The notes under the pieces were generated by a model. It was not told where the DNA came from, did no database searches, and saw only the letters and a program-made list of their open reading frames with translations. This document shows positions 3,239 to 41,850 of a stretch of DNA of 64,000 bases, one piece after another. Origin of the DNA: Bulleidia sp. zg-1006 (lineage in GTDB: Bacteria; Bacillota_I; Bacilli_A; Erysipelotrichales; Erysipelotrichaceae); assembly GCF_016812035.1 (NCBI RefSeq), contig NZ_CP069178.1, forward strand, positions 1,178,001 to 1,242,000. The letters are read 5' to 3'. Both the position numbers and the translations under genes were made by a program. Every line of letters starts with the position of its first letter. Within the stretch, counting starts at the first letter, position 1.

Positions 3239-3386
3239 ATTTCCATACCTCCTATTTTTTCATTATTATATCACAAATCGGGACAAATTTCTATATTTAT
3301 GGGACAAATATTTAAAATTTTAATTTCTGTATGAAAGGGTATATTAGCGTTCCTTCATGAATAAAAAAGAGCCGGTGCAGTTCATT

Positions 3387-3604
3387 TGACCTTGCATAAT
3401 GGTACGGTTAAAGCGTTCTCTCCAATAGTCGAACTTGGCACAGGCTGTCGCTTCAGGATTTTTATCATAGATACTTAACTGACTTCTAAAGTCGTATCTT
3501 TAATCGTTTCCGACAACCTTTAAGAGCTTCAGATATTCTGCTTTACTATGAAGCACATCTTGTTTTACAAGCTCCAAAATGTTATGAAAATCATTTATTC
3601 GCAT
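3387..3604 (-). pseudogene. 5' fragment of a second giant methylase/helicase gene
   Basis: The first 72 codons closely match the start of the 2773-residue helicase at 27405-35726 (about 55 of 72 residues identical), including [17 protein letters not shown] and WRERFNRT. Codon 35 is TAA (3500-3502) where the intact copy has CAA. Similarity ends after MQGQ and is followed at once by a GCACCGGCTCTTTTTT sequence. That resembles the 3' arm of the terminator at 26648-26682, downstream of the same operon in the intact ICE. An internal deletion of several kilobases therefore seems to have joined the start of the helicase gene to the operon end. The start still has a good AAGGAGG. It is a remnant of a related but distinct ICE. 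Confidence 0.85.
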
Positions 3605-16165: not shown

Positions 16166-17160
16166 TTAATAATGTAAATATGGTAACGGGGAAATGCTAC
16201 CAGTCCAACAAAAGAAGCTATCATCAAATCCGTTATCAAAGCGATAAGCTATGCAGAGAAAATAGCCTGTCAGTCATTGACGAATACTACGAAAGATTTA
16301 AGAAAAAGTATAGGACGAACGGCAAATCCTGGTATGAAAATGAGCAAGCTAAAAACGGAACTTCTTGGAAAAGTAAGCTCCAATTTGACATTGATAGAAT
16401 GATAAAACAGTCAAAGGACTGGGATGAATTCTTAAAGAGGATGGCGGATCTCGGCTATGAAATCAAGTATGGTAAGCATATCGCTTTTAAGCACAAAGAC
16501 AAGGAAAGATTTACAAGAGCAAAAACTATCGGAGAAGATTATACGGAAGAAAGACTCAAAGAAAGAATTTTAGAAAACGCTAATCAAAAAACATTCTCCG
16601 TTAAAAAGCGTGTCGGAAATATTATCGACATTGCTAACAATGAAAAGGCACAATCAAGCAAGGGATACGAATTCTGGGCTACCAAACACAACCTGCAAGT
16701 AGCATCAGATACTGTTATCTTAATGCGTGAAAAAGGCTTTAAGTCTCTTGCTCAGCTTGATGATTTTATTAAGAAAAGTGCAGACAAAAGGCAAAGCTTA
16801 CAGGACAAAATTAAGTTACTTGACGAGAAAATAGCTACCCTTTCCACTACTATGGAGCAAGTACATACTGTTACGAAATACCGCCAAATTTATCAGGCAT
16901 ATAAGAAAGACCCTACTGACAAAGCCTTTGCCGGTGAGCATAAATCGGAAATTCTCTTGTACGAAAAAGTCCTTGCCGACCTTAAAAAGTCATACTCTAA
17001 AATGCCAAATTCCAGGCAGATTTTTGAGGAACTTGAAAAACTGAACGAAAAAAAGAATACCCTTATGCAAGAGTATTCTTCCTCAAAAACCGAGATGACC
17101 GAACTGTATCAAATTAGGAAAAACTACGAGAGATATATGGGGAAAGAGATGGAGAGATAG
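16166..17160 (+). CDS. MobP-type relaxase, 3' exon
   Basis: Second exon, continuing with NNVNMVTGKCYQSNKRSYHQ and giving about 330 residues: rest of the nuclease domain, then a helical, charged C-terminal part with coiled coils (about residues 300-400 of the spliced protein). The protein ends KEMER, a tail similar to those of the SSB-like protein (KEAER) and the giant helicase (EHDER). The hsdS cassette begins five bases after the stop. Confidence 0.92.
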
Positions 17161-20281: not shown

Positions 20282-21529
20282 TTAATCAGCAATAGTAACT
20301 TGTCCATTCATCAACATAGGAAGTAACCAATCACGAAGATTGATTAACTCGACGGTTTCATTTTTGTTCTTCAATATGCTGACACGGATTTTATGCAGGA
20401 AGTTTTCATAGTCCAATATAATTTTTTCATCAGGAACAACAACATTCAGTATTGCCAAATTAGCCTCGCTGAGAGATGCTCTTGTTGATGCCATACACGA
20501 ATTATGGAGAAATTTATATATGCCATCGCTACCTAAAAATGAACGTATGTATTCCCTGTAATTAGGATTGTGAACACAAATTTTTCCAAGAGCTACATTG
20601 AACGCACCCTCTATTCCGTATCGAACTGCACCAGCATCTCCGTATTTGTCCATAAGTATGTCAAAGCGGTCAACTATACTAAGATTTTTTGTTCGAGGAA
20701 TATATGTTATGTGTGTATCGCTATCATAATCTCTGTTTTGAATGAAACGCACATAACCTTCTTTTGGCTCATATACAAATTCACTTTTAGGTGGTTGACT
20801 ATTGCTTTCCCAACTTACCAATTTGAGCAGTGGAACAACATTCCAGTTCTCTGGAATATTACGTTTTAGTTGTTCGTTCCAAACCATCTTACCGCCAGAT
20901 GAGCAGTATGGCTTTCCGTTTTCGTCTGGAAAATCAAATTGTGTGAACCAGTAGTCGTAAATAAGCTTAGCTTGCTGCTCTAAATTATCGTTTATCTTAT
21001 TATTTGTCCGAACTTTCATTTCTATTTTATATAATAAATCGCCAATTCTTACCTGTTCTTCATAATCAGGCAAATATACATACAAAAACGAAAAAATATC
21101 CTCATTAAAACTTGCCCTCAAGGTCATTATAGTATTACAATCCAACACTTTCCGAAAATACTTACTTCTCAAGAAAAAAGCAATATATTTCGAGTACACA
21201 ATCCCCGTTGTTTTAGGTCTTAGTCTTTTCACGAAACCACTAAAAGTTGCTTTTGGATAGTCCTTTATCGCAACACAACTCATCGCTAAAGCATCCACTG
21301 TTTCACTTGTTCTCGTAATAAATACATCGTCTTTTTTTACAGAATATATTTCTTGTTCTTTAATAGATGTATTCATTAAATCCGATAATTCCTCGGGAAG
21401 AAAATAATTATTAAACACCGTACTAAATGATACAAATGGAGAACCGTGTCCAGATTGCGCTTTTGATGAAGATATGCCCGAACTCATTTCATATAAATCA
21501 CTGAATTTGTACTTTGTAAGTTTACTCAT
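20282..21529 (-). CDS. hsdS: Type I restriction specificity subunit HsdS (current active form)
   Basis: Specificity subunit of 415 residues with two target-recognition domains (about 1-180 and 230-390), each followed by a conserved helix; the central one reads NNKINDNLEQQAKLIYDYWF and the last LRDWLLPMLMNGQ. It decides which DNA sequence the HsdM/HsdR complex methylates and cuts. The ATG overlaps the end of hsdM by eight bases. The second half is flanked by inverted repeats (20972-20995 inside the gene, 20261-20277 after the stop), so its specificity is probably switchable by inversion. Confidence 0.92.
   Translation of the reverse strand: MSKLTKYKFSDLYEMSSGISSSKAQSGHGSPFVSFSTVFNNYFLPEELSDLMNTSIKEQEIYSVKKDDVFITRTSETVDALAMSCVAIKDYPKATFSGFVKRLRPKTTGIVYSKYIAFFLRSKYFRKVLDCNTIMTLRASFNEDIFSFLYVYLPDYEEQVRIGDLLYKIEMKVRTNNKINDNLEQQAKLIYDYWFTQFDFPDENGKPYCSSGGKMVWNEQLKRNIPENWNVVPLLKLVSWESNSQPPKSEFVYEPKEGYVRFIQNRDYDSDTHITYIPRTKNLSIVDRFDILMDKYGDAGAVRYGIEGAFNVALGKICVHNPNYREYIRSFLGSDGIYKFLHNSCMASTRASLSEANLAILNVVVPDEKIILDYENFLHKIRVSILKNKNETVELINLRDWLLPMLMNGQVTIAD
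20972..20995 (-). repeat. Inversion repeat, long form, copy 1
   Basis: Minus-strand core ATAAACGATAATTTA plus GAGCAGCAA inside hsdS, between its two target-recognition domains. Exact inverted match to 17165-17188. Confidence 0.9.
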
Positions 21530-23144
21530 ACTTCACCTTCTTTAACTGTTCCATAATCTCGGTTTTGAGCTTATCTCCCTCTGCAAAGTATTCTTTTAAT
21601 TTTGCCTGATACTCATCCATTTTTGCCTGAAATTCTTCTTGTGTTAATTCTACATAATCAATCTTTACATCAAAATATTGACCGGCTGCAAGTGAATATT
21701 TCTTTCCTTTTATCTCCTCATAAGTAACTGCAACGGAAAAATCCTCTACAGCTTCTTTATTGTTAAATGTATCAACTATTTTATTGATTTCTTCCGGACG
21801 CAATCTTCTTTTTTGATTATTACCGTCTTTGTATTCTTCTCCCAACTTAGAAGCATCAATAAGGACAACTTTCTTGTTCTCCTTTGATTTATCAAAGAAT
21901 AAAACAGATACATTTGTGCCGGTATTTGCGAAAACATTGGACGGCATACTAATTGCTCCACTAATAATTTCTTTATCAACAATGTGTTTTAACACCTTAC
22001 TTTCAACACCTGATTTTGCCGTTAAAAATCCAGTTGGAACAACAATCGCACCTTTTCCATTGCTTTTAAGCGAATTTATGACATGCTGAATGAAGAGCGT
22101 ATAAATTGCCATACTCTCTTTTTTCTTAGCAGGAATTTTCGGAACGCCACCCCAAAAACGAACGGGCATTTGATCTAATTTCGCTTTATTCTCAGAAAAA
22201 TCCATTTTAAAAGGTGGATTGGATACTACATAATCAAATTGTCTAAGTTCTTTTCCATCATCGCTTTTATGATACGGGCTAACTAAGGTATCTCCTTGAA
22301 TAGCATGATCTAAAGAAGAAACTAAGCCATTCAAAATAAGGTTTAACTTCAACATTTTATTACTTCTTTGAGATATATCCTGAGAAAAGATAGTACACCT
22401 ATCTTCGCCAATTTGGTGTGATAACGCCATAAGCAGTGTGCCTGTTCCCGCCGAAGGATCGTAGCATTCTATGTTGTGCAAATCCTTATTTTCTCCCACA
22501 AGCAAGCGAGCCATAATTGTCGCTATTGCATGAGGAGTGTAGTATTCAGCATATTTTCCACCGCCAGCTGTATTATAGTCTTTAATCAAATACTCAAATA
22601 TAGCTGCAAAAAAATCATAATGTTCATTAAATGCTTCATCAAAAGAAAAATTGATAAGTTTATCCACCAAAGCTCGTGCAAAAGGAGCTCTTTGTGCATC
22701 GTCTGTAACATTGGTAGTTATTTTTTCAAATAAAGCTATTTTTGTTTTTTCAGTTGTTTCTGTGGAGAATATTTCCTTATTCTTGTCTGCAATATCCGTC
22801 ATCGTAGAATCGAAAATGACATCAAAATCGCCTTTTGACTGCTGATTCCATAAGTTTGATATTAAATGTTCTGGATTTAATCTTGGAATATCCGGAGAAA
22901 GCTGATCGAATAAATCAAGCCTTTCATCCTCTGTCATTTTTCTGTATTCTTCTTCCCATTTAGACGCATTGCGAAGTCTTTCACTAATTTTTTTGACTTC
23001 CACTCCGAATTTATCATTCAAGAACTTGAAAAGAAATACTTGAGTGATTATTTTATATTCATTTCCATCGTTGCCAAGTCCATAAACTTGGCAAGTAGCT
23101 TTTAAATTATCTATTAACTGTATAGTCTGTTCCTTAATATTCAT
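21522..23144 (-). CDS. hsdM: Type I DNA methyltransferase subunit HsdM
   Basis: Adenine-N6 methyltransferase subunit, 540 residues. An N-terminal helical domain (IKEQTIQLIDNLKATCQVYG) precedes the SAM site CYDPSAGTGTLLMAL and the catalytic VVSNPPFKM. C-terminal helices contact HsdS. With HsdS it protects ICE and host DNA; with HsdR it forms the nuclease. The ATG at 23144 has GGGAG just upstream; the open frame continues further but without a ribosome site. Operon with hsdR and hsdS. Confidence 0.93.
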   Translation of the reverse strand: MNIKEQTIQLIDNLKATCQVYGLGNDGNEYKIITQVFLFKFLNDKFGVEVKKISERLRNASKWEEEYRKMTEDERLDLFDQLSPDIPRLNPEHLISNLWNQQSKGDFDVIFDSTMTDIADKNKEIFSTETTEKTKIALFEKITTNVTDDAQRAPFARALVDKLINFSFDEAFNEHYDFFAAIFEYLIKDYNTAGGGKYAEYYTPHAIATIMARLLVGENKDLHNIECYDPSAGTGTLLMALSHQIGEDRCTIFSQDISQRSNKMLKLNLILNGLVSSLDHAIQGDTLVSPYHKSDDGKELRQFDYVVSNPPFKMDFSENKAKLDQMPVRFWGGVPKIPAKKKESMAIYTLFIQHVINSLKSNGKGAIVVPTGFLTAKSGVESKVLKHIVDKEIISGAISMPSNVFANTGTNVSVLFFDKSKENKKVVLIDASKLGEEYKDGNNQKRRLRPEEINKIVDTFNNKEAVEDFSVAVTYEEIKGKKYSLAAGQYFDVKIDYVELTQEEFQAKMDEYQAKLKEYFAEGDKLKTEIMEQLKKVKYE

Positions 23145-23154
23145 ACTTTCTCCC

Positions 23155-26100
23155 TTAAGCATACATGTAGTAAGAGTTGTACTGATCAAGATATTCTCGA
23201 CTTATTCTGAATTGAATAAATGACCTATCTTCACGGCTATTTGAAAAATTCATGCTGTTCATTGAGTCTGTTATTTCCTTCATCACAGTTTGCTCAAAAT
23301 ACGCATCTTTCTTCAATATGTCGTTACGATCATAAACCTTACTATCAATATTTCTCTTTATTGTATTCAGCACATCAACAATATCCTCATCGTATTCAGA
23401 AGCAATTGGAGTTGCTGAAGTCATCCTTCTTCGCTCATTTTCTTCCTTTATCCTCTTATGCACACGAGCAAACTTAGTATCGCCATTATATCTTCGTAAT
23501 ATAGCAGTATTTTTCCTCTTAATTTCAGCCAATTTTTTCAAAACATCTTCCAATGCTTCCGATTGCTCATTAAATTCTTTGATACTGTCAATTACAAAAC
23601 CATGTTCTTTAAATCTTTGCATGAAAGCTTCTCTAAGTGTGATATATTCTGGATCATCTTGATCGAAATTTTCGGCAAATTCATTTATGGTTTTTTTCCA
23701 TTTTTCCTTTATCTCAATGCCTCCAGATATAATTTTCATTTCTTCTTTGCTTATAGATTTGAAACTGAACTCTATATCCTCCATCGCCTTATTAACAATT
23801 TGCTTCGTTTCATCATGCATACTGAAAACTTCTTTTTGGTTGATAATATCTATGCAATGTGAAACCTCAGAAATCATTGAAGGCAACTTTGTTATCTCAA
23901 GTTTTTCAAATTTTTGTTTCAATTCCTCATCGCCAAAAGTTCTTACAATATTGCACAAATCTCTTGCAGATATAAGCACCTTTTTTAACTTTAACAACTC
24001 TTCTTTATCCTCTATTGTTGATATTTCGGAGCTAAAATCCTCTGCATTGTCTATGGTATAGTTAAATAAAACTTGCCTTACTTCTTTCATCTTTGCAACT
24101 AATTCTTCGGGACTTTCAAGAACTTGGCTCAGTGTATCCATTGTATTTCCATCGCCTGTTTCAGCAGGATCCTTAAACCTGTTAAGTTCTTTTAGATAAG
24201 CTTCATTTGTCTCATCAAAGTTCTTTTTAATATCTGCAAAATCAATGACATATCCATAGTAATTATCTTTGTAAGGTCTGTTAACTCTCGTCAAAGCTTG
24301 TAGAAGATTATGATCTTTCAATTTTCTCCCGAAATATAGCCTTTTTAGTCTTGGAGCGTCAAATCCGGTCAAAAGCATATTAAACACAATAAGAATATCT
24401 ATTGTATTATTTTTCTTGAAATCATTAACTATTTCTTTTCTTGTCTCTTTATCATCGCTATCATGAAGAATTAACCCCGCTTTTAACTTACTTTTTACAG
24501 AAGCGTTGCAATTCAGTTCTTCTTGTATTTCATCGAAATAAGCAAATAGTTTCCTTGCTTGCTCACTTGTTTCGCAAATCACCATTCCGCCTAATGTATC
24601 GTCTCCCTGAATTTCTCTGAATTTTTTCAAATCCGAGATAATATATCGTAAAAGCTCTTTCACATAGGAATCGTGTTCTACTATATAGCTTTTCTTTATA
24701 TCTTTTTTCTCAACCAAATGCTCAATATTGTCATAAATTTCAGAAAGCTTTTCGCGGTATGAAGTTTCAATGTCTTCCCTTATTATTTTCAGGGTATACC
24801 CATCTTGAATTGACTTGTCATAATAATAAGTATGCAAGTAATTACCAAACACTTTCCATGAAGCTCTTTCTTCTTTAAGCAAAGGAGTTCCGGTCAAGGC
24901 TATCTTTATAGATTCTTGATCCGCATCAAACAGATTTGCCAAGAAACAGCCTTTCGGATTATATCCTCGATGTGCTTCATCAATGATAAATATTCTTTGA
25001 AGATTTGTGTCATAATCGTTAATCACGACTTTTTCTTTATCTTCAGCAAATCTTTGAATGTTGACAACTGTGATTTCTGTTTTTCCACTGTTTCCGTCTT
25101 GAGATTGGTTTGTTCTGAATTGAGCCATCAGTTCTTTTCTGCTACTTGCAGTTTTGACCACTAAACCTCTTGCTTCAAATTCTGAAGATGCTTGCTCTAA
25201 CAAATCTAATCTATCTACAATAAAATAAAACTTAGCTACTTTATTCTGTTTTGCATAATAATCTGTTAAGGCATAGGTTAAATGGTAAGACAATGCTGTT
25301 TTTCCGCTGCCTTGTGTATGCCAAATAACACCTGATTTAATCCCCTCTTCCAGTTTTTCTATTACAGCAAGCGTTGCAAAAAATTGTTGGTATCTCATAA
25401 TATGCTTTTGATCTAAGCTTTCAATCTTACCGCCATCAATTTCTCTATCTATTCTTACATAAGCAAATCCATATTTCAAAAGAAATAACAGTCTTTGTTT
25501 TGAACACATTGATGTAATTATTCTGTTTGTCGGCGTGCTCTCATTTAAGTTAGTCTGATATTCTGGAGATGTATGGATTACTTGGCAATTAAAATCTGAT
25601 AGAATTTGCTTTTCCATATCTTGATTTATATCCAAATACGGAAAATCTTGGATAAATGGAGCTACATCATTGTTGCCAGGATTTTCTTCTCTAAAACAAT
25701 TGAATTTTGTTGTATCTCTTGCTCCAGTGCAATAAAACGCACCCTGAATAGGTATTATTCCTCCCAAGGTTTCATACTCCATATTATTAGAGAAAATCAT
25801 TAGTTGAGTGATGTTAATAAACCTGCGAAATTTCTTGTTTGGAAATCTTTGGTCATTCATCCTCTTGCTTTCCGCAACCATTCCACCTTTATTATTAGGC
25901 TTCTTAACTTCAATAAATACAAGAGGAAGCCCATTTACAAAAAGTGTAATGTCCGGTCTGAATTCATCCTGTCCATTTTTACAAGTAAACTCAGCAGTAT
26001 AATGGAAAGTATTGTTGTTTATATTTTCAAAATCAATGAGTTTTGTTGGAGAAATTGCTACTAATCTCTTATAAAAACTCTTGCCTAAATCGTCATTGTC

Positions 26101-26352
26101 CAATTCCTGCCTTATGCTTCTTAAAACTTCTTCAACTTCTCCAGCATGAGCAGGGTTTAATTTTTTGAATTGATCTTTAAAAACTTCTAAAAGAATATTA
26201 GTATCTCCATCATACTTGATACCCTTCATATCTTCAGTTATTTTCCCGAAATACTTATATCCCAGGCGAGATAAATGAACCAACGCAGGCATTTGTACTC
26301 TTGTAGCCTCATTGAAGTCCTTATTTCTTGAATAATTTTTAACCTCACTCAT
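23155..26352 (-). CDS. hsdR: Type I restriction endonuclease subunit HsdR
   Basis: Restriction/translocase subunit of 1065 residues. The N-terminal PD-(D/E)xK nuclease shows DITLFVNGLPLVFIEVKKP; the SF2 motor follows with WHTQGSGKTALSYHL, IIDEAHRGYN, ALTGTPL and QALTRVNRPY; the C-terminus is helical. It translocates and cuts unmethylated DNA. The ATG at 26352 overlaps the stop region of the preceding HTH gene and is favoured over an upstream start that would run through that gene. No frame defect is seen. Confidence 0.93.
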   Translation of the reverse strand: MSEVKNYSRNKDFNEATRVQMPALVHLSRLGYKYFGKITEDMKGIKYDGDTNILLEVFKDQFKKLNPAHAGEVEEVLRSIRQELDNDDLGKSFYKRLVAISPTKLIDFENINNNTFHYTAEFTCKNGQDEFRPDITLFVNGLPLVFIEVKKPNNKGGMVAESKRMNDQRFPNKKFRRFINITQLMIFSNNMEYETLGGIIPIQGAFYCTGARDTTKFNCFREENPGNNDVAPFIQDFPYLDINQDMEKQILSDFNCQVIHTSPEYQTNLNESTPTNRIITSMCSKQRLLFLLKYGFAYVRIDREIDGGKIESLDQKHIMRYQQFFATLAVIEKLEEGIKSGVIWHTQGSGKTALSYHLTYALTDYYAKQNKVAKFYFIVDRLDLLEQASSEFEARGLVVKTASSRKELMAQFRTNQSQDGNSGKTEITVVNIQRFAEDKEKVVINDYDTNLQRIFIIDEAHRGYNPKGCFLANLFDADQESIKIALTGTPLLKEERASWKVFGNYLHTYYYDKSIQDGYTLKIIREDIETSYREKLSEIYDNIEHLVEKKDIKKSYIVEHDSYVKELLRYIISDLKKFREIQGDDTLGGMVICETSEQARKLFAYFDEIQEELNCNASVKSKLKAGLILHDSDDKETRKEIVNDFKKNNTIDILIVFNMLLTGFDAPRLKRLYFGRKLKDHNLLQALTRVNRPYKDNYYGYVIDFADIKKNFDETNEAYLKELNRFKDPAETGDGNTMDTLSQVLESPEELVAKMKEVRQVLFNYTIDNAEDFSSEISTIEDKEELLKLKKVLISARDLCNIVRTFGDEELKQKFEKLEITKLPSMISEVSHCIDIINQKEVFSMHDETKQIVNKAMEDIEFSFKSISKEEMKIISGGIEIKEKWKKTINEFAENFDQDDPEYITLREAFMQRFKEHGFVIDSIKEFNEQSEALEDVLKKLAEIKRKNTAILRRYNGDTKFARVHKRIKEENERRRMTSATPIASEYDEDIVDVLNTIKRNIDSKVYDRNDILKKDAYFEQTVMKEITDSMNSMNFSNSREDRSFIQFRISREYLDQYNSYYMYA

Positions 26353-26353
26353 A

Positions 26354-26569
26354 TTATTCACTCTCCTCACCATTAACAATTGAAACCATATCCGCAAAAT
26401 CGACATTCAATTTTTTGCCGATTCGATATAAAATCTCCATACTGACAAATTCACCTCTACCCATTTTTGCTATAGTAGCCGGTGCTAAAGATACTTTTTC
26501 TGCCAGGTCTTTTTTATTCATATTCTTATCAATTAGTATTTTCCATAATCCATTATAGCTAACCTTCAT
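26354..26569 (-). CDS. Small HTH regulator of the type I R-M operon
   Basis: A 71-residue Cro/CI-type DNA-binding protein (NKKDLAEKVSLAPATIAKMG) that is first in the restriction operon, with GAGAGGTGAAG before its ATG. Such proteins commonly time restriction after entry into a new host. It overlaps the hsdR start region (stop at 26354, hsdR ATG at 26352), so hsdR is translationally coupled. Confidence 0.85.
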   Translation of the reverse strand: MKVSYNGLWKILIDKNMNKKDLAEKVSLAPATIAKMGRGEFVSMEILYRIGKKLNVDFADMVSIVNGEESE

Positions 26570-27383: not shown

Positions 27384-27406
27384 AAGGGACTTAAATCAAG
27401 CCCCTT
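27384..27406 (-). terminator. Weak hairpin at the end of the giant helicase gene
   Basis: AAGGGGC and GTCCCTT pair across the stop codon region; only a broken T tract follows. It may reduce read-through or stabilise the mRNA end. Confidence 0.35.
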
Positions 27407-30400
27407 ATCGTTCATCGTGTTCTTTTGATTTTGTATCTTTTACTTCTTTTTCTTTCTGCTCTGACTGAAATGACTTAATCTGCCCTAAGATAGATGGCTT
27501 TTCCTCCTTTGCGTGGAGATTATCTTCCACATCGTAGGTAGTCTCAAAGTAGTCGCTATCCCTAAAGTCGTTGTCATATCTGTCAGGCACGCCGTCATTA
27601 TACAAGTCCTTTGCAAGCGGATCATAGAAATTACCTTCATCATCAATTTCAAGACCTAACGCCTGTCTTAATTCTTCCTCATCAACAAAAACAAATGCAC
27701 TAAATTCGCCATTTTCCATTTCAAACTTCATGCAATCAAGAGCCTTTTCTTCGCTACCGTTTTCTTTTACATAATCGTAATGACCTATCTCTTTGTCGTT
27801 TACAAGTTGTGTAGCCATAAAGTCCTCAAGATTAAGTTCAAACTGTATCTCATGCTTTTCATCAGGCGTATTTGTATAGGCAATACCTATATGTTTTAAA
27901 TCAGGATACAGTGTATTGAATTCCTCATAGCAATGATTTTCTTCATACTCTCTGTTACAGAAGTCAATAATGGCTCTTTTTACATCTTCCACTAATGGAT
28001 TGGGATTTTCTTTTTCTTCCACCTCTCCCATATCAAGGAGCTTATTCAACTCTGCAAGTCTTAATATCTTAGTTTTCAATTCCTCCGCCTTTTCAAAAGG
28101 CTTTTTTAATTCCTCTTTAGCATTTTCAAGCTGCTCTTTGGTGCTGACGAATTTTTCTTCAAGCTTTTTTAGTTTGTCAGGCATTTTCTCAATGGCATTA
28201 TCAAGTCTTGTAATATTACCGTCCGCACTCGTTCCAAGCTCTCCTATCGTTTTAGAAGCTCCGTTCAAGCTGAAATTATGCTCATTGGTAAAGAAGTTGT
28301 AGCTCACTTCCAAGTCCATATTTCGATACTTACCGATAACCTTGCTCTCATTTACTTTTACTGTCTTTATAGCTTCAAGCAGCTTTTCGCCCGCTTCTTT
28401 TTTATCCGTTATCTTCGCTCCGTTAATGGTTATGGAAGTAAACTTATTTTCGCCATCTCCTTGCGGTTCTACACTTGATATATCCTTTTTAACAGCTTCA
28501 ATAAGTTTCTCAAGCTTTGCGATTTCATCAGGATAGGTTTTTGCAACCTTATCTTCCAAGCGATAGCGATTTGACTTGTAATTGGCTTCAAGCATTTTAA
28601 GCTTCGTAACCTCATTATCTAAATCCATTTTTTCTTTGATTTTCGGATCACCTGTTGCAAGGGCTTTAATCTCCGCATAGTTAAGGGAACTTTCATCCAC
28701 ATCTTCCGCCACTCTGACAGGAGTCTTTGAAGTCATAATCTGAGAAATGAATTTTTGCTTATTCTCTATGGTCTGCCAAAGGTAAGCATCAAAGGTGTTC
28801 TCGGTAATGTAACGATAGATATTAACTTCTTTATTTTCATTTCCCTGACGGACAATTCTGCCCGCTCTCTGTTCAAGGTCAGCAGGTCTCCACGGCACAT
28901 CTAAATCGTGCATTGCAATCAGCTTGTTTTGCACATTTGTACCTGCTCCCATTTTCTGCGTAGAACCCATTAAGATACGGATTTCTCCTTTTCTTACCTT
29001 TGCAAAAAGTTCATCCTTTTGCTTATCTGAATTTGCTTCATGAATAAAGGCAATTTCTTCTTTCGGTATTCCCATTGCCACAAGCTTATCCCTTATATCA
29101 TCATAGATATTAAACTCTCCGTCTCCCTTTGGTGTAGACATATCCGAGAAAAGAAGCTGTGTAGATTTATTCTCTTTTGTCTTATCCCATATTGAAAATA
29201 CATTCTTAACATAGACATTGACCTTGCTATCAGGATTATCAGGAAGCAGTGGATTGATTAAACGCTGGTCTAAAGCAAGTTTCTTGCCGTCATTCGTAAT
29301 TTTCAACATATTATCTTCTTCAGGCTCTACTTCCTTATTTCTGACCTTATCCGCCCTTTCAGACAAACCTTTTAATATCTCTTTTTGTTCATCACTCGGC
29401 ATTGTCTTAACAACTTCATAGTGTGCTTCAGGAGTAGGAAGATTTAACATATCCGCCGTCTGAATATCTGCCACTTCCTTAAACATACTCATAAGCTCCG
29501 GAAGATTATAGAACTTGGAAAATCTGGTCTTTACTCTATATCCGGTTCCCTCAGGCGATAGTTCAAATGCTGATTGTGTTTCACCAAATGTAGAAGCCCA
29601 AGAGTCAAAATGCTCCAAGCCATTTTTCTTTAAAGCATCATACTGCAAATATCTCTGCATAGTATAAAGCTCCGTCATCGAGTTACTTACAGGCGTTCCT
29701 GTGGCAAATACGATACCTTTTCCGTTTGTCATCTCGTCCATATAGCGACACTTCATAAACATATCGGAAGATTTAAAAGCCTCCGACTGCCCGATACCTG
29801 CTACATTTCTCATTTTTGTATAAAGATAAAGGTTTTTGTAATTATGGGCTTCGTCCACTATCAGCTTATCAACGCCAAGCTCCTCAAAGGTAATGACATC
29901 ATCTTTTTTGAAATCATCATTTAGTTTTTCAAGTCTTGCTTCCAACTTCTTTCTTGTCTTTTGCAGCTCTTTAACCGTGAAGTTCTGATTTCTGTCGTGC
30001 TTGTATTCTTCAACATAGTTAATGATTTCATCAATCTGATCCTGAATATGTTTTTGTTGATATTCCTTTGACATAGGGATTTTTTCAAACTGACTATGCC
30101 CGATTATTACCGCATCATACTCGCCGGTTGCAATCTTTCCGATAAATCTCTTTCTGTTTTTCGGTTCAAAATCTTTCTTGTCGGCCACCATGATGTTGGC
30201 GGACGGATAAAGCTGCATAAACTCTCTTCCAATTTGTCCGGTCAAATGATTAGGAACTACGAATAATGACTTCGTACACATTCCAAGCCTTTTTGCTTCC
30301 ATAGCACTTGCCACCATTTCAAAGGTCTTGCCGGCACCTACTACATGAGCAAGAAGCGAGTTTCCGCCATACAAAATTCTTGCGATAGCGTTTCTTTGAT

Positions 30401-33400
30401 GTTCATATAGGTCAATCCCCTCACCCATCCCCTCAAAGGTCAGATTGCTGCCGTCATACTCACGGTTTCGGATTGAGTTGAATTTCTCGTTATATACCTT
30501 TACAAGCCTGTTTCTTCGCTCCTGATCGTTAAATATCCAGTTCTTAAACTCTTCTTTCAGAATCTCCTGTTTTTGTCCTGCAAGCATGGTTTCTTTTTTA
30601 TTTAAGACCGATGTTTTAGAGCCGTCAGGATTTACTATCTGGTCAAATACCTTTGTTTCCTTTAGGTTTAGAGCATCTTCAATAAGCTTATAGGCACTGA
30701 CTCTACTTGTACCGTAGGTCATTTCCGCAAGGTCATTTCCTCGGTCTTTGCTTTTCCCCTCAACATTCCATTCACTTGTAAGATGGGAGAATTTAACCTT
30801 TATATCCCATCTTGCCCAGCCCGGTGTCTCTAAGGTTTCAAAGACAAATCGTTCTATATCTTTTGTCGGTATCCAAGTAGCACCAAGCCTTACATTTATC
30901 TCGCTTGCTTCAAGTTCTTTCGGCATAACCTTTTGAAGCTCTGACTTTTGAAATTCAAGGCGGTTTAATTCACTTGCAAGCATTTCTTGTTCATCTGTAT
31001 TTTCATCCGGAAGCATTCTTTGTGCTTGGCTTAGTCTTGCAATATAGCTATCTACAATACCTATCTTTTCTCTGATATTTCCGCTTAAATACTCATCTTT
31101 TGTTACATAGGCATACTTAAATGAACTATTCTCATCACTACAGCTAAATGGCAAATCCCCATCTTCAAGGTCAAATGAAAGTTTCTGATTAAACCTTGTA
31201 TTCTCCTCACGGATATTTAGGAAAATTTCTCCTCTAAGCTCCGAAATGATAGTGCTTCTGTCTTTATCTGTCAGACCTTGCATATATTCAAAGTCCACAT
31301 ATCCCTTTTGGGAAATGGAAAGCACCAAGGCTTCAAGTGAGGTATCCACATGGTCAATTACTCTTGCCTTTGTGATAGTACGCTTGAAGAAAATATCTCC
31401 CTTTGCCTTAAAGTTATCTTCCTCATCGAGTATTTCAATGGACGATATAAGAGGGAAATTGCTATCTTCTCTTAAAGCTCTTGTGTTTGAAAGGTTATTT
31501 ACAAAGCCGTGCTTTTTAGAAAAGTTATCATAGACCTCATTTAATTTTTCCTGAGAAGCCTTTATCTCTTCATCGCTGAAATCTTCCTTTTGACTTTTGA
31601 TAACATCTTTTAAGGCTTCATTCAGCTTGAGATAGTCCTTAATCTTTTCTTTGTTCTTATCCGATACCTCTTTTTTAATAAAAAGCGAGTTTTCCCTGTA
31701 ATACACATCGTTATCAATAACGGTATAGGAAAAGTTTTTGACATCGTCCGTTGCCGGAATGGAAGTAATCTCATCATCAAGAAGCTCTATCTCTTCATAC
31801 TTTGCAACTTTAGAAATTTCTTCACTTGCTTTTGTAAGTAATTCCTTTAAGTCCGCATTTTCTTTCGATAGACAAGAAATAGTATTTCCAAATCGTCCTG
31901 ATACTTCTTCCATAGATCCAAGCACCATTTCAGGATGCTCTACAAAGTATTTGTTGTAGGTTAGCCCTTTTTCATCTTCTGCTAAATGCACCCAGGTCTC
32001 ATCACGCTCAAGAACGCTGTCTCTTTTCTTTAAGAAGATAATATCGCTTGTTACTTCCGTTCCTGCTACTCCCTTAAAAGTGTCGTTTGGAAGCCTGATT
32101 GCTCCTAAAAACTCAACCCTTGCATTTATATATTTTCTGATGCTTTCATCTTTCTTATCCATTGTTCCGCTTGATGTGATAAAGGCAATGACACCGCCAT
32201 TTCTAACCTTGTCGATGGATTTTGCAAAGAAGTAGTCATGGATTAAGAAGTTATTTCGGTTGTACTCTCTGTCATTTACCTTAAATTCTCCGAAAGGTAC
32301 ATTTCCGATTGCTACATCAAAGAAGTTATTGGAAAAGCTTGTTTCTTCAAATCCTTTTACCTGTATGTCGCTATTTGGGTAGAGAAGCTTTCCGATGCGA
32401 CCGCTGACAGAGTCAAGCTCCACTCCGTAAAACTTCGACTTACTCATTTCATCGGGAAGATTGCCGATAAAGTTTCCAATTCCCATACTCGGCTCTAAAA
32501 TGTTGCCGTTCTTAAAGCCCATATCCGAAAGTGTCTTATATACGCCGTCAATAACTGTTTTAGGCGTAAAAAAAGCAGTTAAGGTTGACTCCTTAGCTGC
32601 TTCGTATTCTAAAGGTGATAGATTTTCTTTTAGGAATTTTCTTGCATTCTCCCATTGACCGCCCTTTCCTTCATCGAAGACTTCGGAAAGTCCGCCCCAA
32701 CCGACATATTTTGCTAAAACTTCCTGTGCCGTACTGTCAAGCTCTCTTTCGCCCTTTTCAACTCTATTTAGCATTGAGATGGCTTCGAGGTTTTGGTTTA
32801 ACCTTTCGCTCGGTGTAAGTTTTTCAGGTAAAATCTCCTCTGTAATCTTATAATTGGAAGCTTTTTCTTTTGGCTTATCTTCGAGTCCGAATAGTCTTTC
32901 CAAATCGCTTTCAAGCCTATATGGGATAACCTCTGAGCCGGTTATCATACCACCTAAGTATTCAGCATTATCCTTTATGGTGATAGTCTTTAATCCACCG
33001 CCCATATCGTCAAATCTTGTTATGGTAAAGTCTTTATCTTTGTAATGGACTTCATCTCCTACAATGAGCTTCGGTCTATCAAAGCTTATTTTTTCCAAAA
33101 GCTCTTTTTCATCTGCAAAGCTTACGATTGGTATTTGACGATTGCCTTGTCTTACAGGATCAAGCCATAAATCATTTTTGCCTATAATTTCGTTCTTACT
33201 TACCTCATGAATGGTATAGGCTTCATGCTTCATATAGACTGTTCTTCCAGGAGATAAATCCAATTCAGACTCAATGGCGACTTCTTCCTTTTCCTCGCTT
33301 AGATAGTCAAAAATATTTCCTTGAACGGCTTCTTGATTTTCTAATTGAGTCTCGCTTTCTACTGCGTAATCATTTATCTTAAAGGCTTCATATTTGCCCC

Positions 33401-35726
33401 TATCTATCAGCTTATCTACCTTATGGCTTTCATCGAAACTACTTCCACGATTAAGAGAGTATTCTTTTCCCTCAACAACAACTTTTCTTCCCGTGTCTTC
33501 AAGACTAATAGCAAATCCGTCTTTTTTACTTGCAAGGATAAATTCATTTCCGACTTTGATTGCCACTTTCTCAAATTCGTTATCTGAAGCTATTTCTTTT
33601 AGGCTGTCCACAAATTCGCTCATCGTTACAAAGTCGATATTTTCCTTGAAGCTTTCAATCTGTTCTATACTCACCTCATCATTTACAAGGTAGCCTTTAA
33701 GCACATTGAATTTCGCAATATCAATGTCAAGATTTTTGAGATACTGTATCTTTTCTGATGTAACCTTTGTCTCTCCTTTGTTCCAATCATCAATCAGCCA
33801 TTTTAACTGCTCCATTTTCCAAACAGGAAGATTGGGCTCGGCAATTTCAGTGATTTCATTACCATAAAAATCATATTCTTTAATAGCACTTAAAATCTCA
33901 TCTAACTGCTTATCACTAAAATCGTTAATGGAAATATTAGTGCCTTCAAGAGCTTCTTCTAACTTACTTGTTGCAAGTCTGCTTACGGCTTCTTCTCTTG
34001 AAACCTCATATTCTTCCATAATAGAGCTGACTTCTTCGGCAAAGTTAGGACTTAATTCTTCCGCGTATTCATCAGATATTTCATTATCTGCTGCTTTATA
34101 AACTCTTTCATATTCAAAACTCAACTCGCCGTTAAAGACCATTTGAAGCTCTTCTTCGCTCATCTGCTTTTTAAGCTCTGTGTCTTTAAGTTCCCTAAAT
34201 GTTTTCGGGAAATCTTCTAAGATAAGTCTTTGTGCATTTAACTCCCTTAACTCCTCAAGATTGAAATAGCCCCATTCAGGTTCAATCCCAAGTACAAGTC
34301 CAAAGGCATCGCCGCTTTCTCTATCGTATTCTGTCATATACCAGGTCCAATTACTTCTAAAGGGAATGATATATGCAGCGTGTACTTCCTTATCGGCAAG
34401 GGAAATACTTTCCTGCTCATAGAGCTTCGGCACTCTTTCAAGCATTTCATCAGTCATCAGCACATCGGGATTATCCTTAGAATAGAAAAAGGAAGCATTT
34501 TCAGCTCCCTCTTGTATCTTTCTTATGCCGTTTTCTTCTACGCTTCGACTACTTCTTTGATTGTTATTTCTTTCAAGGCTGAAATCATCGCCTGATACTT
34601 CGGATCTTCCTCGCTTACTATATTCTGGGCTTTCAAGAGTTTCGGCTTCTCGTTCCTCATAAAGTTGATTGCTCTCTTTTGAGTTTCCATTAAGTGAGAT
34701 ACCAGCTTCTTCTCTTTGTAAAGGTCGATTAGCATCTGATAGTTCTCCTCGTCCTTGCTCTCTGAAAGATACTCCAGTCTCATCACTGCGTAAGCCGGAT
34801 TCGGAAATTCCTCCATAAAGCTCTTCTCTTCTTCCAGGCTGCTTAGGGTCTTCTCCTTGATGATTGTTACTATCTCGTCCGTGTTCTCCACTCCCGAAAA
34901 TTCGGTTTCTTTGCTCATCATTTCTTTCGTCATCTGATCGAATAACATTATCATTTCCTCCTAATTCATTTACTTTATTTTCATTATAATCGGCACTAAG
35001 GTTCTTTGTCAGGTCTCTATTTTTAGAAAAATTTCTTGTTCTGCTTCTCGTTTCCTCGATGATTTGGCTACAAGCATTTGAAATACAAGTGCCGACACTC
35101 ATTAAAGATATGCTGTCGATAGACTTAAAATTTTCTCTTAAAGTGTCCATCGGAAACGGATAATCAATATGAAATCTGTTTGAAACGGCATAAGCTACCG
35201 AATTTCTCATAAAGTTTGCAAATGAGTTTCTGTCTTCATCTGCAATTCTTAAATTGTTTGCAAGCTCATAAATGCTCTCATCGGCATATATTCGGCTCAA
35301 AGTATAAAGATTTTCAGCTAAGCTTTCGCTTGCCTCATATCCTTGCAAATCAATCATGTCTTTTAAAGCTTTGCCATTATTTTCTTTATCAAAAGACCAT
35401 AGCTTAACTTCATTGACATTCCTGTCCATTGAAGTTGTCTGGCTGACATCGAAGATATATCCGACCTTTTGAAATGCGTTACTGTCATTTAGAATTGGTA
35501 TGCCCTTTTGCCCTCTCATAACAGTACGGTTAAATCGTTCTCGCCATAAATCAAAGCTTGTGCAAGCTGTGGCATTCGGATTTTTATCATAGATACTTAG
35601 CTGACTTAAAAAGTCGTATTTCTGATTGTTCCCGACAACCTTTAAGAGTTTCAGATATTCGCTTTCGCTATCTAAAACATCTCTTTTTACAAGCTCCATA
35701 ATATTGTAAAAATCGTTCGTTCTCAT
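27405..35726 (-). CDS. Giant N6-adenine methylase / SNF2-type helicase (LtrC-like N-terminus)
   Basis: 2773 residues. In order: an N-terminal ArdC/LtrC-like region (1-230, [16 protein letters not shown]); a low-complexity Arg/Glu/Ser/Asn-rich linker (about 240-410); regulatory-looking middle domains; an adenine methylase with [11 protein letters not shown] (near 1075) and the NPPY variant NVPF (near 1142); a SNF2/DEAD motor with VVGAGKT (near 1800), VDEAHNYKN (near 1955) and [10 protein letters not shown] (near 2290); and a charged tail. Family members protect or unwind incoming ICE DNA and may act as anti-restriction proteins, but their job is unproven. The linker overlaps a second reading frame (34538-34948). 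The tail contains [18 protein letters not shown], shared with the hydrolase at 43642, and [12 protein letters not shown], shared with the SSB-like gene. Confidence 0.9.
34538..34948 (-). CDS. TnpV-like protein encoded inside the giant helicase gene
   Basis: A second frame on the same strand, shifted by one, open for 136 codons from ATG 34948 with AGGAGG eight bases upstream. The product is a normal-looking helical protein: [12 protein letters not shown], then [19 protein letters not shown], then [18 protein letters not shown]. This pattern (tyrosine-leucine-rich start, GKL-HL-like core, final EEI-like helix) resembles TnpV proteins of Firmicutes mobile elements. The overlapping helicase segment (residues about 260-396) is low-complexity, as expected where a second frame constrains the codons. 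Similarity to TnpV is by eye; function unknown. Confidence 0.5.
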
Positions 35727-38539: not shown

Positions 38540-39541
38540 TTATTTAATTTTGTGAATTTCTTTTTCCAGTTCAAGCACTGAATTCATCAGCTCTTCAAAA
38601 CTCGGATACTCGCCAAAGAACATCTCAGTCATATTTTTATAGTCTTCTTTAATTTCCTTTAGGCGATACTCATCAGGCATAAGTCTGATTGTTTCAGTTG
38701 TAGCTTCTTCATATTTTGCCCATTTCCTTGGATAGAATTTCTGCTTAAACTGAACAACTTTTTCAAGAAGCTCAAAGCTCTTAAATGCTCTGGCTTTATA
38801 TGGCGAATTTGCTATGCACACTAAATCATAATAGTGTCTTGCATATCTTTTAGGTATTGCAAGCTCTTCAGGTCTGTTTGCTTCATGATGAAGGATAGTT
38901 GCTTTCTCCCAGAATGTTCTTTCAGGAAGAACGGTTCTTACTTCTATAAAATCCCCATCAAAGAGCATAGGATATATTTTTTGTATATCAGGCACAATAT
39001 GAACTGCTTCCGATGGTGTCCATGCTGCCAGTGTTCCAATTTCAAGTCTTACTGCCTGCACCACATACGAAGACTTGAATGCTTTCGGATATTCAAACAG
39101 AACTGTCTGCGGATCACTTTCATCTATTCTTATATGAAACTCCTCATCAAGCATATCTCTAAAATCACTTTCTAACTGAGGAACAAATTCATTTTTTAGA
39201 AAGTCTTCCGTCTTTTGATTGGACTCTTTATTAAATTTATCTTGCTTTGTATTGGAGCGTTTTTGCCAAGGTTCATCAAAGCTATATCCGATCACTCTCC
39301 AATCAAGGATTAAATCAATATCTTCGGAAAATCTTTGAATTAAATTGAAGCATTTTGAAAGGCTTGTGCCTCCCTTAAAGGTAAAAGCTTCTTTCCACTT
39401 ACACTTAGTGAAAAGATAATTTAAAACAAAGCATACCCAATAATCTTTTTCAAGAATTACCTCATTTACACCGATTTTCAAGGAAGCATTTTTTATAACT
39501 TGCTCCAATTCATTTTTTGACATCTTTTTGTATTCAAACAT
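38540..39541 (-). CDS. abiEii: AbiEii-type nucleotidyltransferase toxin
   Basis: 333 residues, nucleotidyltransferase fold with FTFKGGTSLSKCF and, after the usual spacing, SEDIDLILDW (the GS...DxD catalytic signature), plus the downstream lysine-rich helices of the AbiEii/AbiGii family. Family toxins stop growth in phage-infected cells by acting on tRNA or other nucleic acid substrates with a nucleotide. It lies two bases after the antitoxin gene, in the usual antitoxin-toxin order. The length suits the family. Confidence 0.9.
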   Translation of the reverse strand: MFEYKKMSKNELEQVIKNASLKIGVNEVILEKDYWVCFVLNYLFTKCKWKEAFTFKGGTSLSKCFNLIQRFSEDIDLILDWRVIGYSFDEPWQKRSNTKQDKFNKESNQKTEDFLKNEFVPQLESDFRDMLDEEFHIRIDESDPQTVLFEYPKAFKSSYVVQAVRLEIGTLAAWTPSEAVHIVPDIQKIYPMLFDGDFIEVRTVLPERTFWEKATILHHEANRPEELAIPKRYARHYYDLVCIANSPYKARAFKSFELLEKVVQFKQKFYPRKWAKYEEATTETIRLMPDEYRLKEIKEDYKNMTEMFFGEYPSFEELMNSVLELEKEIHKIK

Positions 39542-39543
39542 TT

Positions 39544-40143
39544 CTACACCTCTGAAATTTTCTTAATAACGCCATATACCCAGGCACTTGTGGTTTTACT
39601 ATCCGCCAGTAGTTCCGACTTTTCTTTTTCGGATAATTTTTCCCGTAGATAATCAATCTGCTTTGAAGTGATTTTATCTTTTCCGATTGCCTTAATTGAC
39701 TGTATCACCATTGAAGTCAAGGTTGACATTTTGGAAATGTCTCCATTATTTCTACGCTTAAATTCGATTGTTGCATTACCGAAACTGAAACTGGCATATC
39801 TTCCGTCTGATATGTATGTCCACTTTGCCGGTACTTGCGTAGATAAACCTAATAAATTAAGAGCTGTATTGCCCGATGGAGCAATCGTCCAGTTATATTT
39901 TCTGGCAATGGCATTAGCAACTTCATTCACGGACGGTGCTTCATACTCTCCGATCAGTTCTATATATTTCGGCTTATAGTAGATGCCTTTCATAATACGA
40001 ATAATCTCTTTATCTTCTACAAGACGATTTAATGTACTGCGAACCGTTTCATATCCTGCAATATCAAAAAAATCGTTGGCAATGAAAACCTGATTGAACT
40101 CAAAATTTTCTATCCTGTTTAGTATTTCCTGCTTATAGTTCAC
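39544..40143 (-). CDS. abiEi: AbiEi-type antitoxin and autoregulator
   Basis: Antitoxin of about 199 residues. The N-terminal winged helix (FIANDFFDIAGYETVRSTLNRL) is followed by the AbiEi antitoxin domain (GIYYKPKY, APSGNTALNLLGLSTQVP). I chose GTG 40143, because AAAGGAGGTG stands nine bases upstream; the open frame before it runs through the promoter palindrome. AbiEi binds inverted repeats in its own promoter and silences the operon, which fits the palindrome at 40161-40192. Confidence 0.88.
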   Translation of the reverse strand: MNYKQEILNRIENFEFNQVFIANDFFDIAGYETVRSTLNRLVEDKEIIRIMKGIYYKPKYIELIGEYEAPSVNEVANAIARKYNWTIAPSGNTALNLLGLSTQVPAKWTYISDGRYASFSFGNATIEFKRRNNGDISKMSTLTSMVIQSIKAIGKDKITSKQIDYLREKLSEKEKSELLADSKTTSAWVYGVIKKISEV

Positions 40144-40160
40144 CTGATATGCCACCTCCT

Positions 40161-40200
40161 TTGCACCAAATATTATATAATATTTGGTGCAAATAGTCAA
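40161..40200 (-). promoter_or_regulatory. abiE promoter with a perfect 32-base operator palindrome
   Basis: On the minus strand TTGACT (40200-40195), a 17-base spacer and TATAAT (40177-40172). The palindrome 40161-40192 (half-site TTGCACCAAATATTAT) covers the spacer and the -10 box, so bound AbiEi would block polymerase. The -35 box is only two bases from the target duplication of the IS, but it is intact. Confidence 0.85.
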
Positions 40201-40201
40201 T

Positions 40202-40228
40202 GGCAGCAAATCTCACAACACTTTATAC
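40202..40228. repeat. Target duplication of the IS, left copy
   Basis: 27 bases starting GGCAGCAAATCTC and ending CTTTATAC, repeated exactly at 41851-41877. Confidence 0.92.
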
Positions 40229-41850
40229 TATGAATGTTCAGTGATAATGTCTTAATAGATGTTCAGTGAAAATGTCCCAATTATTGATTAAAGATAGTGA
40301 GGCATTGTTTTACATCTCTTTCTCCATTTTATTATTTTCCAGTCATTGGAGGAACAAATGAAGAGGATACGATTATCTATGAAAGAACAAGAAAAATATT
40401 TGACAATCAAAGATTTAATTGACCATCACGGCAATAAGAAACGAGCAGCTTTAAAACTCGGTGTTTCTATTCGTACAATCAATCGTTTAATTATTGTCTA
40501 TCGGAATAAAGGAAAAGCCGGTTTCGTTCACGGAAACAGAAACCGACCATCTGCTCATTGCCTCACACAAGAATTAAGCTCTCACATCATACATCTTTAT
40601 CAATCGATTTATCAAGATGCGGGCTTTAATTTTTCTCATTTTACCCAATTCTTAAGTGAAAAACATGATATCCATGTCAGTCTTTCTTCGGTTAGAAGAA
40701 TTTTAAATGAAGTAGGTATCTTCTCCCCTAATGAACACCGCTGTTCAAAAAAGAAAAGAAGTATCATGTCTTTAAAACAAACGAAACCGACTCTCACGGA
40801 TACGGAACTAAATGTGGCTGTCAATCATGAATTAAGTTTACAACTAGCTCATCCAAGAAAAGCTCGATGTAAGAATTTTGGGGAAGAAATACAAATGGAT
40901 GGCTCTATTCATAATTGGTTTGGTGAAAATAAGGCAACACTACATCTAGCGATTGATAATGCCACAGGCGTGATTGTAGGTGCTTATTTTGACAAGCAAG
41001 AAACACTTCACGGCTATTATCACTGTTTTCACCAAATCCTTTCTAACTATGGCGTACCCTATCAATTTCTTACCGATAGACGAACTGTTTTTGAGTATGA
41101 AAGACGCACGAATAAATCGGCTGAAAATGATGTCTTAACGCAATTCGGTTATGCCTGTAACACTCTTGGCGTTACCATTGAAACTTCCAGTGTTAGCCAA
41201 TACAAGGGGCAAATAGAAAGAGCGAATAGAACCTTTCAAGACCGCTTAGTTAGTGAGTTAAAAATGGAGAATATAACAACCATAGAAAAAGCCAACCAAT
41301 ATCTTATTGAAACCTTCGTACCTAATTTTAATAGGCGTTTTGCTCAAGATTATACGAAATACCCTTCGGTAATAGAAAGTAGTCCCGGCGAAGAGACAAT
41401 CAATCTAACATTATCAGTTATATGCGAAAGAAAATTCGATAATGGCTCCTGTATAAGCTATAAAAACAAATATTACCAAGCCTATAATCAAAATAATCAA
41501 TTAATCGCCTTTAAGCCTAAGACAAAAGCCTTAGTCATTAAAACCCTAAACAATACCCTATACGTAACGGTAGATGATTGTGTGTATGCTCTATTTGAAT
41601 TAGAAAAGAACAAGAAAGTCTCTGCAAATTTTGACACTAATGACACAAAAGAAAAAAAGCCGAAACAGGTACATATACCGCCAATGAGTCATCCTTGGAA
41701 AAGAGATTCATTTATTCGTCAGCAACAAAGAGCACATCAACACAAGCAATTTACACGATGATAGTAAGCTTTAAAATAGCGAGAAATCTCTAATCAAGAT
41801 TCCCCGCTTATATTACAAATTTTTTGGGACATTTTCACTGAACATTGACA
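40229..41850 (+). mobile_element. IS1202-like (ISNCY) insertion sequence
   Basis: 1622-base IS between exact 27-base direct repeats. Terminal inverted repeats of about 25 bases share AATGTTCAGTGA and AATGTC; the left end carries the motif twice (40235 and 40262, TGTTCAGTGA then TAATGTC or AAATGTC). Very long target duplications (24-29 bases) are characteristic of the IS1202 group. One transposase gene. It landed between the DUF4366 gene and the abiE promoter, disrupting neither. Confidence 0.9.
40358..41761 (+). CDS. IS1202-like transposase with integrase-type catalytic core
   Basis: 467 residues. The N-terminal helix-turn-helix (KKRAALKLGVSIRTINRL) is followed by a DDE core with EIQMDGSIHNWFG, LAIDNATGVIVGAYFD, FLTDRRTVFEY and SSVSQYKGQIERANRTFQDR, then a basic C-terminus. 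The ATG at 40358 follows GGAGG; an upstream TTG lies inside that ribosome site. The frame is intact, so the IS may be active. It is transcribed against the ICE operon. Confidence 0.9.
   Translation: MKRIRLSMKEQEKYLTIKDLIDHHGNKKRAALKLGVSIRTINRLIIVYRNKGKAGFVHGNRNRPSAHCLTQELSSHIIHLYQSIYQDAGFNFSHFTQFLSEKHDIHVSLSSVRRILNEVGIFSPNEHRCSKKKRSIMSLKQTKPTLTDTELNVAVNHELSLQLAHPRKARCKNFGEEIQMDGSIHNWFGENKATLHLAIDNATGVIVGAYFDKQETLHGYYHCFHQILSNYGVPYQFLTDRRTVFEYERRTNKSAENDVLTQFGYACNTLGVTIETSSVSQYKGQIERANRTFQDRLVSELKMENITTIEKANQYLIETFVPNFNRRFAQDYTKYPSVIESSPGEETINLTLSVICERKFDNGSCISYKNKYYQAYNQNNQLIAFKPKTKALVIKTLNNTLYVTVDDCVYALFELEKNKKVSANFDTNDTKEKKPKQVHIPPMSHPWKRDSFIRQQQRAHQHKQFTR

Follow-up and report, generated by a model that had tools for sequence, protein, structure and literature searches.

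Long genes nested on the same strand within other genes are thought to be rare and short-lived in bacteria. ComS, a product of ~46 residues, is to our knowledge restricted to Bacillus. Its gene comS lies within the much larger srfA of Bacillus subtilis, on the same strand and out of frame, and both genes are functional (PMC12350097). Long overlapping genes backed by selection or expression include olg1 and olg2 of Pseudomonas aeruginosa (PMC12350097), and an overlapping gene with support of this kind, nog1 of enterohaemorrhagic E. coli, is described as recent (PMC4683798). The polyvalent proteins of conjugative elements combine an ArdC-N header with a DNA methylase and a SWI2/SNF2 ATPase (PMC5512222).

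A giant helicase gene sharing this polyvalent architecture is encoded in the window (the whole stretch of 64,000 nucleotides of Bulleidia sp. zg-1006 DNA that was analyzed), and a tnpV-like gene is overprinted on its linker. The arrangement resembles comS/srfA in its same-strand, out-of-frame nesting within a much larger gene; unlike ComS, tnpV spans 110–150 codons, encodes a protein with a predicted fold and recurs across Bacilli and Clostridia. Unlike the recent nog1, the tnpV/helicase pair is found across two classes, with the overlap in all members checked. The nested gene belongs to the same family as the TnpV genes of Tn4451 and resistance elements (PF14198), but those described genes are treated as ordinary genes. 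The polyvalent-protein paper mentions neither TnpV nor overlapping (PMC5512222), and our literature search (open-licence papers) found no description of the tnpV/helicase overlap, which looks like an old gene-within-gene that annotation pipelines usually miss. The features in the window are as follows:

27405..35726, minus strand: giant polyvalent protein, 2773 codons, with ArdC-like N-terminal, overprinted linker, N6-methylase-like (Eco57I) and SNF2-type helicase domains
34962..35726, minus strand: ArdC-like N-terminal domain of the helicase, residues 1–255, from alignment (the homologous region overlaps genes annotated as ArdC-like ssDNA-binding)
34957..34962, minus strand: Shine–Dalgarno site AGGAGG, 6/6 match, 8 bases ahead of the ATG at 34948
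34538..34949, minus strand: helicase linker, ~residues 260–396, encoded by the tnpV DNA when read in the helicase frame; low in complexity, with disorder predicted
34538..34948, minus strand: tnpV-like gene, 136 codons plus stop, assigned by its ORF, homologues, phase, PF14198 membership via intermediates and fold

The tnpV gene runs from an ATG at 34948–34946 to a stop at 34540–34538 (136 sense codons) and lies wholly within the helicase ORF (35726–27405) on the same strand, confirming the preliminary description of a 136-codon frame inside the helicase with AGGAGG eight bases before its ATG. The first position of each tnpV codon is the second of a helicase codon, a shift of one base. A further in-frame ATG at 34954 is only 2 bases from the AGGAGG and is absent in most homologues. 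In the window helicase the tnpV frame is the longest alternative-frame run (140 stop-free codons, the runner-up having 60), as it is in 32/37 long helicase ORFs. The linker is rich in Arg, Glu, Ser, Gly and Asp (each ~10–12%) and the composition of TnpV is ordinary (Leu 11%), bearing out the contrast first drawn between a low-complexity linker and a small protein of normal composition.

All 46 checked loci begin tnpV with ATG, and an AGGAGG-like site (at least 5/6 matches, 4–13 bases before the ATG) precedes it in 43/46, compared with 4.2% of the remaining +1-frame ATGs of these genes, although starts were chosen per locus partly by their match to AGGAGG, which somewhat favors high matches. 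Because its phase relative to the helicase frame differs among loci, with all three phases represented, the site is conserved at the DNA level.

The identical overlap, in the same place and the same phase, was found in 61/61 related loci (Bacilli, Clostridia and viral-collection contigs), gathered by tblastn and profile searches from genome contigs, plasmids and viral contigs. Throughout, the TnpV frame follows the ArdC-like N-terminal domain of the helicase at a constant one-base shift (48/48 loci, a set that includes L096, frameshifted in both genes, together with 13/13 viral-collection loci found using the helicase N-terminus as query). Both frames are open across the whole overlap and conserved. 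With 61 such loci, a sequencing frameshift was rejected as the source of the overlap, and the earlier statement that overprinted genes of this kind are rare should be put differently: the pair represents a single, very widespread case, not an isolated one. The preliminary description would have been contradicted by a broken second frame beneath a conserved linker; no intact helicase with a broken tnpV frame and conserved linker was seen in the loci examined. Bias from TnpV-based searching was addressed by a repeat with the helicase N-terminus alone. The profile of this domain, which was derived from TnpV-bearing loci and could miss distant TnpV-free helicases, fetched 29 loci from 196 genomes of the window's order, and TnpV adjoins the domain in 29/29 (among them the doubly frameshifted L096, and L106, where the TnpV match is weak). 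Weak matches were those of L106 (21.9 bits) and L115 (24.7 bits); even a distant SNF2 gene on an E. faecalis plasmid has TnpV, at 24.7 bits. Other ArdC-like proteins were rejected as hosts, TnpV being absent from 21/21 loci that encode such proteins but no giant helicase. These counts involve approximate statistics on related sequences and uneven sampling, and at several loci the position of contig ends affects the gene calls. L128 is truncated, holding the N-terminal domain only; no giant SNF2 gene was seen in the stretch of the pCF10 region that was read; and queries of viral contigs gave no match with the window TnpV and one with a single gut-type TnpV.

Substitution patterns reveal which frame governs the shared DNA. 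Upstream of the overlap, substitutions per site at helicase positions 1/2/3 were.267/.178/.494, and within it.380/.231/.165 (both for the 0.2–0.3 divergence bin); the helicase wobble bases, which are the second positions of TnpV codons, are thus fastest outside the overlap and slowest inside it. Of 1027 pairs, 983 show higher identity in TnpV than in the linker encoded by the same DNA, and TnpV identity follows that of the N-terminal domain (Mantel r = 0.92, 46 loci, 0/2000 permutations). The substitution pattern and the identity comparison both point to purifying selection on the nested frame beyond that on its host. Aligning homologous helicases and comparing the two frames, as had been proposed, shows substitutions following TnpV codon positions, and the claim that the small gene sets the codons is upheld by the rates at each position. 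Openness of the small frame is a less uniform guide: under random synonymous helicase codons it had P = 0.0007 at the window locus (L107) and a median P = 0.007 over 46 loci, but because P reaches 0.1–0.6 in GC-rich members, openness alone is no proof there.

That last observation favors a reading in which a low-complexity Arg/Glu/Ser/Asn/Gly linker leaves a long open frame by chance and the resemblance to TnpV is accidental: in GC-rich members a linker of such composition makes it easier for a shifted frame to stay open (P up to 0.6), and the window sequence by itself falls under the Pfam cut-off. We give this reading a negligible probability. The same place, phase, start site and family recur in 61 loci, the 21 loci with ArdC-like proteins but no giant helicase carry no TnpV, the profile match described below reaches 99.3%, and the TnpV-type substitution pattern already refutes it; a chance frame or low-complexity artefact was rejected on phase, start site and substitution pattern.

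Constraint acts on the helicase frame as well. It is stop-free across the overlap in 46/46 loci, whereas the helicase-phase frame of 20 standalone TnpV genes contains 2–19 stops; randomizing the codons while keeping TnpV leaves the helicase frame open in a median of 0/3000 trials. Even conditioned on the lack of stops, the linker is depleted in large hydrophobic residues in 46/46 loci (mean z −3.8), a sign of selection on the host frame beyond the demands of the nested one. The linker was at first taken for a tolerated by-product, a claim that does not stand, as the linker is kept free of stops and hydrophilic to a degree that TnpV does not account for; so both frames are selected, and we consider this very probably a same-strand nested gene pair. 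Judged from these comparisons, the linker is shaped by both genes. A model of the helicase N-terminal part was poor overall (pLDDT 45.6), with the linker at pLDDT ~30, and the linker is predicted to be disordered. In this pair, kept in one phase across two Bacillota classes with selection measurable on both frames, the codons of one gene shape a disordered linker in the product of the other.

Identification of the small protein relies on its relatives. Against PF14198 the window TnpV scores 16.6–16.9 bits, under the Pfam cut-off of 27, such that the single sequence does not qualify by itself. Alignment of the window clade with a set of strong PF14198-type rows (hhalign) gave 99.3% with E 5e-20 over 94 columns; 52/57 related rows match PF14198, an overprinted relative (L014/L038) reaches 49.8 bits and other relatives at the same position score from 120 to >150 bits. 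On this sequence evidence membership of PF14198 holds through intermediates, and the likeness to TnpV proposed at the outset survives via the clade alignment and the 52/57 relatives but not via the window's own score (16.9 against 27). AlphaFold2 models TnpV (20 sequences) as an all-helical fold with pLDDT 90.3 and pTM 0.83; neither this model, in comparison with the PDB and a viral structure library, nor a sequence-based search gave a significant match, and no Xis-like or other DNA-binding fold was found for TnpV by either route.

In a tree that is poorly resolved and has long branches, most standalone TnpV genes form one group among the overprinted ones, with five changes of state, and two sequences from a single genome, standalone L048 and overprinted L034, are sisters; free copies may have escaped from helicases. 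Standalone genes with a decayed helicase-phase frame serve as free natural controls. One such control, at L177:4746–5078 (genome G162), is close to the overprinted TnpV of the same genome (L034/L094) and has 10 stops in 111 codons of its helicase-phase frame. At L126 (viral collection, S. suis-like), L009 and L014, TnpV is intact and the helicase frame broken, suggesting that TnpV can outlive its host gene. As to origin, we are evenly divided over a stronger proposal, that the transfer modules of conjugative elements in Bacillota carry, as a fixed feature, an obligate and very old overprinted pair: every ArdC-header methylase-helicase linker would have arisen by second-frame reading of tnpV, the header and helicase having fused across an existing gene, or tnpV would have been born there and later become free.

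In L091 and L173 (genome G378) and in L104, a standalone tnpV is present at the point where a foreign tail (VGRILRTFKIKKNVEVTDNGK) closes a giant helicase ORF; in L173 a tetracycline-resistance-type gene comes next, with a recombinase-like gene farther along. A VirB4-like ORF in L022 ends in a tail near-identical to VGRILRTFKIKKNVEVTDNGK. Shared foreign tails fit elements inserting into conjugation genes, and insertion of an element into snf2 has been reported in S. suis (PMC9815147).

How two proteins could be obtained from one stretch of DNA can be outlined as a single conjugative-element mRNA read in two frames. Initiation at the helicase start would yield the giant protein, in which a disordered tether joins the ArdC-like header to the methylase-helicase part; internal initiation at AGGAGG…ATG, with the tether DNA read one base on, would yield TnpV as an all-helical protein of 110–150 residues. 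We infer, from the conservation of the start site, that TnpV is translated from such an internal start. The shared strand and constant phase would equally suit programmed +1 frameshifting near the end of the ArdC-like domain, producing a header–TnpV fusion that ends at the tnpV stop and whose domain order would be sensible, but in several loci the tnpV frame opens just 0–4 codons before its ATG, leaving little room upstream, and the strong start site and the ATG are conserved; frameshifting therefore has a very slight chance of being correct. We regard as highly improbable a mainly regulatory arrangement, in which translating tnpV inside the helicase mRNA would serve to adjust helicase production, the TnpV protein being of little importance. 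Nested translation would indeed interfere with, or couple to, that of the helicase, and the host is a helicase gene in most loci; against this, TnpV has a confidently predicted fold and is conserved at the protein level, is kept standalone without the helicase frame, and is intact in S. suis-like L126, whose helicase frame stops inside the linker.

Internal initiation would thus supply a protein that presumably serves transfer or establishment of the element. Our guess, a tentative one, is that TnpV is co-produced with the helicase and works in trans, as a small accessory protein serving the DNA-processing module of the element; we judge this role the most likely because the evolution of TnpV parallels that of the header domain and because TnpV also occurs where there is no helicase, for example on an element that has inserted into a gene for such a helicase. 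An excisionase-like factor for the element's recombinase, itself compatible with a nested pair, has a precedent in Tn4451 TnpV, for which a role in excision was postulated from similarity to lambda Xis (PMC3158075), and one resistance element contains both a standalone tnpV and a recombinase-like gene. We consider this function unlikely, as the postulated excision role found no structural support in our searches and tnpV is here tied to the helicase.

The overlap is hidden because pipelines keep one gene of the pair, and NCBI rules bar fully embedded genes without justification (PMC8665328). On a Cohnella plasmid (L109) TnpV is named and the giant helicase is unlisted (the gene table of this plasmid is itself incomplete); on a Monoglobus plasmid (L110) TnpV is annotated and the helicase is called from ~3.1 kb downstream of the start of the open frame. 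Annotations of Anaerococcus and S. suis name the helicase but not TnpV. The unlisted or shortened helicase where TnpV is annotated is a systematic annotation artefact, and the pair thereby exposes an error of this kind in conjugative elements.

Several further features accompany the pair in the window. At 3386–3604, ~31 kb from the intact copy, lies part of another helicase N-terminal domain, containing one stop. Type I restriction-modification genes (20282–26406) lie downstream of the helicase on the same strand, AbiE-like genes (38540–40209) and an IS-like transposase (40346–41761) are near it, and a group II intron reverse transcriptase gene (14188–17160) sits directly ahead of a relaxase-like remnant.
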